Shown one piece after another: positions 860 to 62,942 of a stretch of DNA of 64,000 nt. The notes under the pieces were generated by a model that was not told the origin of the DNA, made no database searches, and saw nothing but the letters and a program-made list of their open reading frames with translations. Position numbers and translations under genes: made by a program. The stretch lies in the NCBI GenBank assembly GCA_903847205.1, contig CAINDA010000056.1:1-64000 (forward strand). Reading direction: 5' to 3'. Source of the stretch: an uncultured Bacteroidota bacterium (GTDB taxonomy: Bacteria; Bacteroidota; Bacteroidia; 2-12-FULL-35-15). Every line of letters starts with the position of its first letter. The first letter of the stretch is position 1.

Positions 860-1110
860 TTAATATTGTTTTTTGTAGCTAATATTTTTTTCTTAAAGAT
901 AAGAAGTCCAATAAAACCTAAAATGGAAATAACCAATCCCGCTTGCCAACATTTCAGAATGAAACATAAATCATCTCCTGTTACGTATGAAATACAAGTA
1001 TTATCTGTTTCATATTTTAAACCAACCATTGTGTTAACTATGCAGAGAAGATAAAATGGAATTGAAATTCCCAATACAATTAAAATGGTTCTGTAATAAA
1101 CTCTTTTCAT
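856..1110 (-). CDS. Small two-helix membrane protein of unknown function
   Basis: The 84-aa reading starts at the internal Met (MKRVYYR). A longer frame runs back to 1155, but its first 15 residues are charged, and its start codon would lie against the flanking repeat motif. Two hydrophobic stretches are visible, about residues 8-30 (ILIVLGISIPFYLLCIV) and 58-76 (GLVISILGFIGLLIF), each ending in positive charges. Between them a loop carries two cysteines. I recognise no family. The 3' end overlaps the start of the hydrolase gene by the ATGA tetranucleotide, so the two probably work together at the membrane; this is an inference from context only. Confidence 0.5.
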   Translation of the reverse strand: MKRVYYRTILIVLGISIPFYLLCIVNTMVGLKYETDNTCISYVTGDDLCFILKCWQAGLVISILGFIGLLIFKKKILATKNNIK

Positions 1111-1144
1111 TTCGTGTCGTGTTCGTTCGCGCGTCCTCACAGTT

Positions 1145-1153
1145 GCCGATAAC
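1145..1153. repeat. Right copy of 9-bp inverted motif GCCGATAAC
   Basis: This is the exact reverse complement of GTTATCGGC at 135-143. It lies about 35 bp upstream of the start of the first gene of the two-gene unit. GC content rises around it (cacgccgctaaacgcagcc) compared with the AT-rich DNA that follows. Confidence 0.4.
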
Positions 1154-1569
1154 ACGCCGCTAAACGCAGCCTTGCATATTATTTATTTTTTCAATCGATA
1201 TACGCAGCTTTGGCGATTATTTCTTCAGCAAAATAAGTATTATTTTATTTCGCCGGCTTAATAATCATAATTCATTGCGCAATACCGGCGTTTTGGGCCG
1301 ATAGGCGAAACCAGTTTCGCCTATTTCCTGATTATCGCAAAGCAATTGTAACCGCTTACAAATAATTAACAATCGGCTTTAGCTCAAATTGATAATCAAA
1401 GCTTATCAAAATCATAATCAAAGCAAATATAATTTAATAAAAATGCTCCCTGATTAATTACAATTCTAAAATAAAATCCATAAACTGTTTTAAATCATAG
1501 TTTGGCTAAAACAAAGTTCCGAAAATTGAAATCTGAAAAATATCCGATTTCGTTCTTTGAATATTATAA
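1154..1569. other. Gene-free AT-rich spacer with a perfect hairpin
   Basis: No convincing ORF lies in this stretch of about 415 bp. It contains a perfect inverted repeat: ATAGGCGAAA (1301-1310), loop CCAG, TTTCGCCTAT (1315-1324). A looser CGCCGG/CCGGCG pair lies just before it at about 1250-1290. Neither is followed by a T run, so neither reads as an intrinsic terminator. The rest is AT-rich without recognisable structure. Confidence 0.5.
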
Positions 1570-1600
1570 ATGAATCTTTTACCAGCCGGTAAATCCGTTA

Positions 1601-1852
1601 CAAAGGCAAAAACAAGTGTTTTTACTGCTGTGCCGTCCGGTACAAAGGCAAAAACAAGTGTTTTTACTGCTGTGCCGTCCGTTACAAAGGCAAAAACAAG
1701 TGTTTTTATTGATGTGCCATCCGTTACAAAGGCAAAAACAAGTGTTTTTACTGCTGTGCTGTCCGTTACAAAGGCAAAAACAAGTGTTTTTACTGCTGTG
1801 CTGATTGGTACAGAGGCAAAAACAAGTGTTTTTATAGATGTACTGTCCGGTA
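1601..1852. repeat. Six 42-bp tandem repeats
   Basis: Units start at 1601, 1643, 1685, 1727, 1769 and 1811; a decayed partial unit follows at 1853. Each unit has a nearly invariant first half containing GGCAAAAACAAGTGTTTTTA and a variable second half (ctgctgtgccgtcc, ttgatgtgccatcc, tagatgtactgtcc and similar). The core can form a hairpin: AAAAAC, loop AAGT, GTTTTT. Because 42 is a multiple of three, frames stay open on both strands: a plus-strand 111-aa frame at 1570-1905 with 14-residue repeats (TKAKTSVFTAVPS) and a Cys-rich minus-strand frame. Differences between units are mostly amino-acid-changing in the plus frame, while the core is fixed at DNA level. I therefore read this as a DNA or RNA element rather than a gene. 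It ends 78 bp before the next start codon. Confidence 0.9.
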
Positions 1853-1929
1853 CAGGGATAAAAACAAAATTTCATACCTATTTCTATCCAAACAATCATT
1901 ATTAAAATCAACCTTAAAAAATTACAGAT

Positions 1930-2922
1930 ATGCTTACATGGTTATACTTAAACAATCCTTTCCTCACAGCAGTGGGCAGAAACTTTAAATTAGCAGTACA
2001 TATTTCTACTATTACCGATGCCGCTTTATATGCACGTTTATCCGACCCCTTTTATGCCGCGCAGTATGCAATTTATCACCCCATACATCTGGCATTAACC
2101 ACAGCTTATACCAACTGGAAAGCCCAGGGCGGCACACAGGTTGGCGCAACGCTTACCTTATTTCAGTTGTATAAATTGTTAAGCGCTGTAAAAATCAGTG
2201 TTTGGGATTTAGGTATTACCAATGCTGTAGGCAAAGGCGCAGCTAATACTAAATATATGAGTCTGCTTGGCAGCGGACATAAACCTTTTCAGGCAGGTAA
2301 ACATGATGACAGAATGCAGGCAGTGGCAGCATTAAACATTCAATTGGCCAATCCATTGGTGCTTTCGGCTGCCGATATTGCTGCCTTAGCTCCTACTAAG
2401 GCTGATGTAAACACATTTTTAGGATCGCTCAGTCTCGCCAATACAACACAGGCAGGCCATGTAACACAAACCAGCAGTTTTTCAGATGCGCTTACACTTG
2501 CTGTAGGCAATACCTGCACAGCTTTATATGCTATGTTAGGTTTATGTATCAATAAATTTGCTGCTACGCCAACGGTTATTGAACCTATATTTGATTTGCA
2601 AAGCATCCGCAATCACAAACAGCTGATATATACAGGAGCCTTAACCGAGTATGAAACAGAGAACATTCTGCAGCATACTTTTGTAACTTCCGACGAATTA
2701 AAATTAGAAAGCGGAGCAGCTAAAATTCAATTTTATCTGGCTGCAACCGCTGCTGCTGATGCCGCCAATCAAATATTGATAACAGTAAATCCCAACAGTA
2801 TTATTACAATCACTGCAGCACAGCTTGTAAATGCGGCACCCGGTGCTGTTATAACCAATACTTTTTTACATGTTGTTAATACCGAAAACGCAGCAGGTAA
2901 TTTTAAAGTAAGTCTGCTGTAG
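1930..2922 (+). CDS. Orphan 330-aa protein downstream of tandem repeat
   Basis: I do not recognise this protein. It is 330 aa, rich in Ala, Thr, Leu and Asn, with no signal peptide or clear membrane helix. The N-terminal half looks mainly helical (about residues 1-210, with segments such as AQYAIYHPIHLALTTAY). The last part (about 255-330) alternates hydrophobic and polar residues in a way that suggests a beta-rich domain, ending IVNTEN-type strands and KVSLL. The gene begins 25 bp after the open frame formed by the 42-bp repeat array and 78 bp after the array itself, so the array may form its leader. Composition matches neighbouring genes. It might be a structural or surface protein, but that is a guess. 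Confidence 0.7.
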   Translation: MLTWLYLNNPFLTAVGRNFKLAVHISTITDAALYARLSDPFYAAQYAIYHPIHLALTTAYTNWKAQGGTQVGATLTLFQLYKLLSAVKISVWDLGITNAVGKGAANTKYMSLLGSGHKPFQAGKHDDRMQAVAALNIQLANPLVLSAADIAALAPTKADVNTFLGSLSLANTTQAGHVTQTSSFSDALTLAVGNTCTALYAMLGLCINKFAATPTVIEPIFDLQSIRNHKQLIYTGALTEYETENILQHTFVTSDELKLESGAAKIQFYLAATAAADAANQILITVNPNSIITITAAQLVNAAPGAVITNTFLHVVNTENAAGNFKVSLL

Positions 2923-3011
2923 AATACTGATTGGATATATTTTATCAATCAAAATTTCTTTACTAAACAGCCGAAAGATTTTAATATCTTTTCAAAATAT
3001 TTTCAAAAAAT

Positions 3012-59914: not shown

Positions 59915-60556
59915 ATGGCAGCATATTCGAAAGCCGTTATTTTGCAGATAATTGCAAAACAGAAACCAGGCAAACGCATCCTACAGTTTATCGAACATGC
60001 TTTTGGTGTTCATACATCGCTTACAAGTCCTGCTCCAAATGGCAATCCTAATTTTATTGGGCAGGTATGGTCGGTATCACTGGCTCAGTTTCTATCAGAT
60101 TTAAATGCCTTGGATGAATCGCAGAGCGGCCTGCATCTTAATCCGCCTAAAAGTACCGCTGCTCAGAGAAACGGATTAAAAAAAACTGTTGCAAAGCAGT
60201 TGAAACTAATAATGAGTGATGTTCAGAAAGCAGCAGATCTTTTGCCGGCTAAGGCTAAGGTAATTATAGAGAGTGCGGGTTTTGCTGTGAAAAAGCCAAG
60301 TTCTCCAAAGAAAAATATCGGCGTAAGAAATACCAATAAATCGGGCACAATAGTTATTGCTGCTGCTGAAGCCGGGTATCATGAATGGTCTCAGAAAAAT
60401 GCTGACGGAAGCTGGCTTGAATTGAGAGCCAGTACCCGCAGAAAAAAAACAGTAAAAAACTTACCTCAAGGCAGTTCTCAAATATTCCGCAGCGCCCCTA
60501 TTCTTTCTACCGAAGATGGAGTATGGACAGAATACCCTCCTATTATTATTACTTAA
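59915..60556 (+). CDS. Orphan 213-aa protein with fibronectin-like C-terminus
   Basis: The protein has no signal peptide. Its N-terminal half is helical and basic (about 1-125, e.g. QLKLIMSDVQKAADLLP). A Pro/Lys linker (about 125-138) leads to a small beta domain (about 140-213, SGTIVIAAAEAGYHEWSQ and SWLELRASTRRKKTVKNL), which looks fibronectin-type-III-like. I cannot assign a function. It is followed after 86 bp by a long 21-bp-monomer repeat array. The other orphan gene of this window (1930-2922) also adjoins a repeat array, but their sequences are not obviously related. Confidence 0.65.
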   Translation: MAAYSKAVILQIIAKQKPGKRILQFIEHAFGVHTSLTSPAPNGNPNFIGQVWSVSLAQFLSDLNALDESQSGLHLNPPKSTAAQRNGLKKTVAKQLKLIMSDVQKAADLLPAKAKVIIESAGFAVKKPSSPKKNIGVRNTNKSGTIVIAAAEAGYHEWSQKNADGSWLELRASTRRKKTVKNLPQGSSQIFRSAPILSTEDGVWTEYPPIIIT

Positions 60557-60642
60557 AAGTAATTGGTTAATGATTCATTAGTCATTTGGCATTGATCCAT
60601 TGCTTATTGGTCATTGGTTTATTGACATAAGTATTTAGCAAA

Positions 60643-61230
60643 AAGAACCTCCGCTTGTTTACTAAGAATGCAATCTCCCAAACAAAGTACCTCTGCTTCA
60701 TTAAGAAGAACCTCCGCTTGTTTAGTTAGAATATAAGCTCTCAAACTAAGAATCTCTGCTCCGCTGAGAAGAACCTGTGATCAATTGCTAAGAAAGCAAT
60801 CTAACAGACAAAGAACCTGTGCTTCGCTGAGAAGAACCTGTGATCACTTACTAAGAAAGAAAGCTAACAGATAAAGAACCTGTGCTTCGCTGAGAAGAAC
60901 CTGTGATCGCTTACTAAGAAAGCAATCTCACAGACAAAGAACCTGTGATCCGTTAAGAAGAACCTGTGATCGCTTACTAAGAAAGCAATCTCACAGACAA
61001 AGAACCTGTGATCCGTTAAGAAGAACCTGTGATCGCTTACTAAGAAAGAAATCTCACAGACAAAGAACCTGTGATTCGCTAAGAAGAACCTGTGATCTCT
61101 TAGTATGAAAGAAATCTCTCAGGCAAAGAACCTGTGATCCGTGAAGAAGAACCTGTGATCGCTGACTAAGAATGCAAGCTCTCAGACAAATAACCTGCGA
61201 TCTCTTACTAAGAAAGCAGGCTCTCAGTTC
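60643..61230. repeat. 28 x 21-bp tandem array with a 63-bp higher-order pattern
   Basis: Exactly 28 monomers of 21 bp fill 588 bp. Three monomer types alternate: A (AAGAACCTGTGATCGCTTAC and a T), B (AAGAAAGCAATCTCACAGAC and an A) and C (AAGAACCTGTGATCCGTTAA and a G). The order ABC holds through the first 26 monomers, giving a 63-bp unit; an A-like monomer then sits in a C slot, and a B ends the array. The edge monomers are the most diverged and the centre (60895-61062) is almost identical, as expected from unequal crossing-over. Eleven GATC tetramers lie at the same offset in A and C monomers. Stop codons interrupt the forward frames I checked, so it is not a gene. Confidence 0.95.
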
Positions 61231-61325: not shown

Positions 61326-61363
61326 AAAACGCCCAGCCTGCATAATACAGGATGGGCGTTTTA
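61326..61363 (-). terminator. Intrinsic terminator of metK
   Basis: AAAACGCCCAGCCTG pairs with CAGGATGGGCGTTTT (one mismatch) across a 7-nt loop. Read on the minus strand it ends in a run of T. It starts 16 bp past the metK stop. Confidence 0.85.
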
Positions 61364-61378
61364 AATTCTTTAAATGAA

Positions 61379-62632
61379 TTATTTTATTTTAAAAGCTGCT
61401 TTCACTTTAGCAACATAATCTAATTTTTCCCAAGTAAATAATTCAACTTTTACTTTCTTTTGTTTGCCGTCAGGCAGTGTAAAAGTTTTAGTCACCACTT
61501 CGTTTTTACGTCCCATGTGGCCGTATGCAGCAGTTTCGCTGTAAATAGGATTGCGAAGTTTTAAACGCTGCTCGATAAAGTAAGGACGCATATCAAAAAT
61601 AGCTTCTACCATTTTTGAAATTTCGCCGTCGTTCATTTTAACTTTAGCAGTGCCGTAAGTATTTACGTAAATGCCCATCGGCTTTGCAACACCAATTGCA
61701 TACGATACCTGAACCAATACTTCGGAGCAAACACCTGCTGCAACTAAATTTTTTGCAATGTGGCGTGTAGCATACGCTGCAGAACGGTCAACTTTCGAAG
61801 GATCTTTACCCGAGAAAGCTCCTCCGCCGTGAGCGCCTTTTCCGCCGTAAGTATCAACAATAATTTTACGTCCGGTTAAACCTGAATCGCCGTGAGGCCC
61901 TCCAATAACAAATTTACCTGTTGGGTTAATATGATATTGTATTTTGTCGTTAAACAAATGAGCAAACTTTTTGTATTTGGTTTTTACGCGCGGAATTAAA
62001 ATTGAAACGATATCGCTTTTAATTTTCGCTAACATTTTTGCTTCTGCATCAAAATCATCATGCTGTGTAGAAACTACAATAGCATCAATACGTACAGGAA
62101 CATTGTTATCATCATACTCCAATGTTACCTGAGATTTTGCATCAGGGCGGAGATATTTAATCTGTTTGTTTTCTCTGCGGATAGCCGCAAGTTCAATTAA
62201 AATTTTATGAGCCAAATCCAATGCTAATGGCATATAATCATCAGTTTCGTTTGTTGCGTAGCCAAACATCATTCCCTGGTCGCCTGCACCCTGCTCTTCT
62301 TTTTTCTTTTTATCAACTCCCTGGTTAATATCAGCCGACTGCTCATGAATAGCCGAAAGCACACCGCATGAGTTTGCTTCGAACATATATTCGCTTTTGG
62401 TGTAACCGATTTTTTTAATCACATCACGTGCTATGGTTTGAACATCTAAATATGCTTTCGATTTTACTTCACCTGCAAGAAATACCTGCCCGGTTGTTAC
62501 CAATGTTTCGCATGCTACTTTCGACTGAGGGTCAAATGCCAGAAAATTATCAATTAAAGCGTCAGAAATCTGATCAGCTACTTTGTCTGGGTGTCCTTCC
62601 GACACCGATTCGGATGTAAATAAGTATGACAT
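61379..62632 (-). CDS. metK: S-adenosylmethionine synthetase
   Basis: MetK makes S-adenosylmethionine from methionine and ATP. The 417-aa protein carries all the usual signatures: [18 protein letters not shown] (about 11-28), [12 protein letters not shown] (about 114-125), and [20 protein letters not shown] (about 268-287), which provide the ATP, Mg and phosphate ligands. It is cytoplasmic and a housekeeping enzyme that feeds the several SAM-dependent methyltransferases in this window. A strong Bacteroidota-type promoter lies upstream; no SAM riboswitch was recognised. A terminator follows. Confidence 0.97.
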
Positions 62633-62667: not shown

Positions 62668-62697
62668 CTAAAGTACATAAAATGTATTAAGTACAAA
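62668..62697 (-). promoter_or_regulatory. Predicted metK promoter
   Basis: On the minus strand TTTG (62697-62694) and TACTTTAG (62675-62668) are separated by 18 bp, close to the Bacteroidota consensus TTTG-N19-TAnnTTTG. The -7 box lies about 36 bp before the metK start. The -33 box lies inside one arm of the 30-bp inverted repeat described separately. Confidence 0.6.
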
Positions 62698-62942
62698 GTA
62701 TTATGTATTAAGTATTATGTTTTGAGAATTAAGTATTGAGTAGTATGTATTAAGAAACTATTCAAAGTTTACTTAAAAAATTACTAGTCAGTCTCCCCTC
62801 TTTTCTCAACTCCGCTCGAAATGACACCGCCAAAGTCATTTCGAGCGGAGTTGAGAAAGCGCGCCGGGATAAAATATTGATTTTGAATAAAATCCCCCCC
62901 CCCCTGCAAAGTACATAATACTTAATACATACTACTTTGTAC
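62691..62942. repeat. Nested inverted-repeat region between metK and plsC-like gene
   Basis: The outer arms are 62691-62720 and 62913-62942, with 29 of 30 bases complementary. Inside sits a perfect 24-bp inverted repeat: TTTCTCAACTCCGCTCGAAA plus TGAC at 62802-62825 and its complement at 62835-62858, with a 9-nt loop. A run of eleven C (62894-62904) follows. The interior between 62700 and 62760 is made of degenerate TATTAAGTAT-like units. The whole looks like a small non-autonomous element or a decayed insertion between divergent genes. Confidence 0.8.

Follow-up and report, generated by a model that had tools for sequence, protein, structure and literature searches.

The tandem array studied here raises the question of what a bacterium might do with a few hundred base pairs of satellite-like DNA. 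The array lies in a stretch of 64,000 nucleotides, analysed at its full length and referred to below as the window (Table 1). A preliminary description, made from the sequence alone, had reported monomers of 21 bp arranged as ABC trimers, homogenised in the centre and diverged at the edges. Both aspects were recovered. Slicing the array at 21-bp steps gives exactly 28 monomers, with a mean identity of 77% within one ABC class against 51% between classes, and an independent run of Tandem Repeats Finder returned positions 60659-61202 with a period of 63, 8.6 copies and a score of 641. The identity of neighbouring 63-mers ranges from 68 to 100%, peaking in the centre (1.00, 0.95 and 0.92) and reaching its lowest values at the edges. 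The best-conserved stretch of every monomer is AAGAA; across arrays in general, evidence that one half of the unit is conserved is weak, with p<0.05 in 10 of 66. The hierarchy is therefore real, whereas its supposed rarity in bacteria does not extend to the genome of the window (G000, an assembly of 72 contigs), which holds 15 non-coding arrays of this period class in 790 kb, about one per 50 kb. As to further copies of the unit itself, which the preliminary description had proposed looking for, none was found elsewhere in this genome with up to 3 mismatches; a looser search recovered a single relic of about 90 bp (G000:C65:141142-141232).

The array is flanked by convergent genes. One of them, the 213-aa gene on the plus strand, had been missed as a partner of the array. 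The other, metK on the minus strand, is an ordinary neighbour outside the gene-array locus. The hairpin between the array and metK is probably a bidirectional terminator; it is absent from the output of a terminator scan. The heptamer GTATTAA recurs about 10 times at 62682-62754, between metK and the next gene, and several array loci likewise have 7-bp repeats nearby.

Table 1. Coordinates of the features discussed, numbered from the first nucleotide of the window.
Feature	Position	Strand	Basis or remark
Duplicated segment, array and gene	1104..2948	+	88% identical copy at G000:C28
Second array, period 42 bp, 5.7 copies	1594..1834		repeat analysis
Family-2 linked gene, 330 aa; mostly helical by sequence, putative C-terminal beta domain	1930..2922	+	
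Linked gene, 213 aa, array-linked family 1	59915..60556	+	ends 86 bp before the array
AT-rich stretch of 86 bp separating gene from array	60557..60642		sequence
Tandem array, 28 x 21 bp, non-coding, 63-bp ABC higher-order repeat	60643..61230		sequence analysis
Hairpin AAAACGCCCAGCCTG...CAGGATGGGCGTTTT between the array and convergent metK	61326..61363		by eye
S-adenosylmethionine synthase (metK), convergent neighbour	61379..62632	-	established gene family

The product of the linked gene is predicted to consist of an N-terminal helical bundle (approximately residues 20-120) and a C-terminal FN3-like domain (approximately residues 132-213). A Pfam search with this protein gave no match. Homologues, however, pass the gathering score of PF00041 (FN3), set at 25 bits (32.6 bits for L028 and 33 bits for L024), and in an alignment of the family, hereafter family 1, the N-terminal half is helical, whereas the C-terminal one is Pfam FN3 in the better conserved members. 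AlphaFold models of the window protein (pLDDT 86) and of a canonical family-1 member (pLDDT 94) both combine a helical bundle with FN3, and in a fold search with the model of the window protein, residues 132-213 matched FN3 domains with a Z of 11.1 and an rmsd of 1.7 over 81 residues. The C-terminal part of the window protein is thus modelled as an FN3 beta-sandwich. All strong matches fall in the FN3 part, the helical domain being barely probed by these searches. No DNA-binding domain is recognisable in the linked protein, and median pI is 6.9, near neutral, for canonical family-1 proteins and 9.7 for the genus-type ones.

A contig search with the window protein alone as query found no match. 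A profile search of 84,980 species genomes with four proteins (L023 entered twice) identified 63 loci, with matches in Bacteroidetes/Bacteroidota, Verrucomicrobia, Planctomycetes, Acidobacteria and Ignavibacteria, among others. Family member L028 has no homologue in 72,556 plasmids and no match in phage records, and profile A3 has none in viral contigs. Twelve family-1 copies were seen in G000, ten of them with an array by the methods used; Tandem Repeats Finder reported no array at L177 and L178 of this genome. Besides the linked gene, no neighbour recurs at the loci that could be a third partner.

Almost every relative of the window ORF adjoins an array with a period of 21, 42 or 63 bp, and the unit is different each time. 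Most full-length members have an upstream region with self-similarity at lags 21, 42 and 63, including some for which Tandem Repeats Finder reports nothing. In autocorrelation tests taking the maximum over lags and positions, strong periodicity at multiples of 21 was found in 36 of 50 canonical family-1 upstream regions against 2 of 177 control regions, the latter lying upstream of other genes at the same loci and treated identically (p=6e-28); loci of one genus share ancestry, yet not array sequence. When family 1 is reduced to non-redundant clusters at 60% identity, 48 of 62 have an array. A separate count of intervals found arrays in 41 of 76 upstream, 17 of 78 downstream and 1 of 756 distant ones. 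The period is exactly 21 at 52 of the 56 loci with a detectable period of 15-29 bp, and the mean match in family 1 reaches 0.63 at lag 21, compared with about 0.26 for other lags. L119, also of family 1, has a period of 22/44/66 bp, and L017 and L180 have one of about 20. In canonical family 1 the array is 5′ of the gene, at a median of about 190 bp from the start codon, whereas the clade to which the window gene belongs has it 3′, with a median distance, by the track method, of about 31 bp. The usual position of arrays is 70-300 bp upstream of the start. Arrays have a median length of 238 bp and comprise 10-28 units. The target array is one case of this general gene-array locus, a widespread and apparently undescribed type in which a non-coding ladder of fixed step accompanies the gene of a small helical/FN3-like protein. 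The open-access papers searched yielded no account of such a pairing, and neither Rfam, Pfam, PADLOC, phage nor plasmid searches gave a match for it.

Three further protein families, similar in build, were picked because one member adjoined an array, and arrays were then predicted beside their relatives. Family 2 is represented in the window by a gene whose array ends 96 bp before it; its product has no Pfam match. An upstream array is present at 23 of 24 testable family-2 loci, with a match of 0.81 at lag 42 and no lag-21 signal at all. Since family 1 goes with lag 21 and family 2 with lag 42, the period follows the linked protein family. Arrays were found at 14 of 18 loci of family 3 (L053, helical plus a carboxypeptidase-regulatory-like domain) and at all 18 distinct loci of family 4 (L199, 230 aa). 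In these two families (L053, L199, L278-L317) the arrays are upstream and of 21 bp, and the proteins are helical with a carboxypeptidase-regulatory-like or FN3-like C-terminus. The association also extends to whole genomes. Family 2 occurs in 9 of 41 genomes, 7 of which also carry family 1 (p=1.2e-5). In two genomes with both families, arrays with a multiple of 21 bp as period occupy 69 of 2553 and 23 of 525 sampled tiles; in three congeners lacking both, they occupy 1 of 1879. One of these congeners, G010, has a single family-3 member, with an array. The family-2 arrays L245, L251 and L264, from three genomes, have a GGAGGTRAGT-like motif in common; the rest of the unit differs.

The assertion that the target array is non-coding held: all six frames contain stops (14, 5, 19 / 5, 7, 22) and variation among monomers shows no codon-position bias (p=0.09). 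Coding of a repeat peptide, 21 bp amounting to 7 codons, was also rejected for arrays at large, as 51 family-1 and 20 family-2 arrays show no excess of open frames over their column-permuted versions (25 against 20 and 11 against 8 expected). The 11 GATC tetramers had been correctly placed at a fixed offset in A and C monomers (all are at offset 10 of the 21-mer), a regularity that results from repetition of the unit. The functions proposed for the array fared unevenly. GATC, suggested to mediate methylation-dependent binding, occurs 42 times in 62 other arrays against 43.8 expected, and, as regards origin or terminus DNA, comparable arrays are scattered over many contigs beside many gene copies. 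Given this lack of GATC excess and this dispersal, methylation and oriC/ter both explain the arrays poorly in general. Simple slippage leaves unexplained the exact period of 21 (or 42) bp, its occurrence in unrelated sequences and its attachment to particular gene families. The array may, as was also suggested then, be nucleoid-binding or segregation-like DNA. No clear signal of intrinsic 10.5-bp A/T phasing was detected within units.

Array sequence changes rapidly. Units are unrelated between loci, even beside paralogues 82% identical: two such paralogues in one genome have almost no array 9-mers in common, yet can still be aligned over the leader that separates array from gene. The closest pairs, with proteins 94-95% identical, share about one fifth of their array 9-mers. 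Gene and array nevertheless travel as a unit, since the window segment carrying the family-2 pair was duplicated as a whole. In its copy (L273, G000:C28, approximately 157947-159193) the gene is broken into two overlapping frames and the array is 1-2 units shorter. Gene-less array copies and relics also occur in G000. Arrays without a recognised partner are L037 12858-12974, L041 777-1219, L047 9042-9549, L066 17867-18378 and L196 6382-6524, all in the 21-bp period class, and the gene-less array L268 (G000:C50:13824-14002) is 79% identical to a family-1 array on a different contig (L062 10308-10567).

The reading that we favour, with a probability of roughly 0.45, is that the locus has two parts and the array is its DNA half, a helically phased double-stranded scaffold serving most likely as a ladder for cooperative protein binding. 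We infer this mechanism from the observed linkage, period, non-coding status, unit turnover, genome co-occurrence and joint duplication. Each step of the ladder would be two helical turns (four in family 2), and the array would act as double-stranded DNA with its equivalent sites lined up on the same face. A protein would bind along the array cooperatively and form a phased nucleoprotein rod like those on iteron or centromere arrays. The simplest candidate is the linked-gene product, possibly dimeric where it sits on one of the frequent dyads; the predicted product is small and soluble, a helical bundle with a beta-sandwich domain. Such a rod might serve in autoregulation or in anchoring or organising DNA. 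A double-stranded phased scaffold is favoured because the step is the sole near-universal property of the arrays, and the period matches the helical repeat of B-DNA rather than 22, that of an RNA helix, or arbitrary values. Joint homogenisation of the units would allow the sequence to drift, as would a greater importance of spacing than of bases. That each protein family reads helical spacing rather than sequence, imposing its own step and leaving the letters free, is a more doubtful proposition. Several observations sit uneasily with a scaffold: the linked protein has no recognisable DNA-binding domain and in canonical family 1 is near neutral; unrelated arrays beside 82%-identical paralogues are hard to reconcile with sequence-specific binding by that protein; the window clade has its array 3′ of the gene, against 5′ elsewhere; and several G000 arrays have no recognised partner gene.

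The main rival, rather unlikely in our estimation, is that the array is a tandem-hairpin RNA gene, bound by or regulating the linked protein, with 21 nt as one hairpin module. Inverted repeats do exceed column-permuted controls (22 of 56 arrays at p<0.05, Fisher combined 4e-19; 28 of 75 when best-period units are used), frequently with a stem of 7 bp and a loop of 7 nt. In the 82%-identical paralogous pair L079 and L083 the 7-nt spacer TTTCAAT is kept as the palindromic arms shift from CAAGCTTG-like to CCTATATAGG-like, and mismatches in arms show a modest excess of G-T over A-C (99 against 64; 19 loci against 8). Significant inverted repeats are, however, confined to about a third of arrays, and a permutation test found none in the target, a distribution that also tells against dyads in a scaffold. 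A two-repeat piece of the target folds slightly better than its dinucleotide shuffles, with a z of -2.3 as RNA and -1.9 as DNA. Over the set, folding z-scores do not differ between sense and antisense (-2.02 and -2.14, p=0.79), and family 2 has no sense advantage; inverted repeats without strand preference are as expected for DNA dyads. Rfam 15 gave nothing above gathering threshold for ten loci including the target, arrays lie both 5′ and 3′, and nothing in RNA demands 21 over 20-25. Less probable again, the array could be a cis-regulatory region that tunes or phase-varies expression of the adjacent gene by its copy number, acting through spacing itself or an unrelated general DNA-binding factor, the linked protein not touching the array. 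The usual distance from the start codon and the ongoing unit turnover visible as higher-order structure would suit such a region; the 3′ arrays of the window clade, between convergent genes, and the sharing of arrays by four protein families with family-dependent periods would not. We give least credence to functionless by-products, of slippage or of the replication of a repeat-prone element also carrying the gene. Joint duplication, gene-less copies and fast turnover are what such an origin would produce, but the period is fixed across phyla in unrelated sequences and kept after full sequence change, long-diverged orthologous loci conserve it, and about three quarters of loci, or more, have kept their association with the gene.

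The scaffold reading invites comparison with known systems. Plasmid replication iterons are direct repeats of about 17-22 bp that bind Rep with sites on one face. The arrays here likewise repeat every two helical turns or so and adjoin a gene whose product is a putative binding protein. They differ in having neither a rep gene nor plasmid context, 10-28 units instead of about 3-7, and dozens of loci per chromosome; the linked protein, helical and FN3-like, is no replication initiator and lacks a winged-helix Rep domain. At L043 (2013-2956), 63/187-bp and 22-bp repeats start at the stop codon that closes an ORF of 402 aa; the ORF resembles a replication initiator, and these repeats may be true plasmid iterons. 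In parC/ParR and tubC/TubR, phased arrays of short, system-specific repeats lie upstream of the gene for a small DNA-binding protein. The present loci share this layout and the locus-specific repeat, but are present in many copies per genome, encode a fold unrelated to ribbon-helix-helix or TubR, and have no recurrent motor-gene neighbour of the ParM or TubZ kind. CRISPR and TIGR arrays are also tandem, non-coding and beside a gene. The target, by contrast, consists of 28 abutting 21-mers without variable spacers, no unit is common to loci, and the target unit has no guide-like match at another genomic site; no cas or tas effector gene was found, with no recurrent neighbour and no credible PADLOC match. 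REP/BIME elements and the minisatellite MITE of P. gingivalis (PMC4596501) resemble the arrays as intergenic palindromic or tandem bacterial repeats; those are dispersed copies of one sequence, whereas here only the period is kept and the target unit is limited to its own array and one relic. Eukaryotic satellite DNA shares the constant monomer length, the fast turnover and the central homogenisation of higher-order repeats, but the arrays here are short and each is tied to a gene.

If this interpretation is correct, many bacterial proteins annotated as 'hypothetical' or 'fibronectin type III domain-containing' would gain a defining non-coding partner overlooked by annotation, and bacteria would possess satellite-like DNA in which spacing, not sequence, is conserved. 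Cultured strains, among them Limnovirga soli KCS-6, Niastella vici DJ57 and Longitalea luteola, carry gene-array loci too. The arrays would also help account for breaks in draft assemblies. Draft contigs stop within or beside arrays at L060/L067, L048/L070 and L064; many loci are therefore probably truncated or lost in short-read assemblies.
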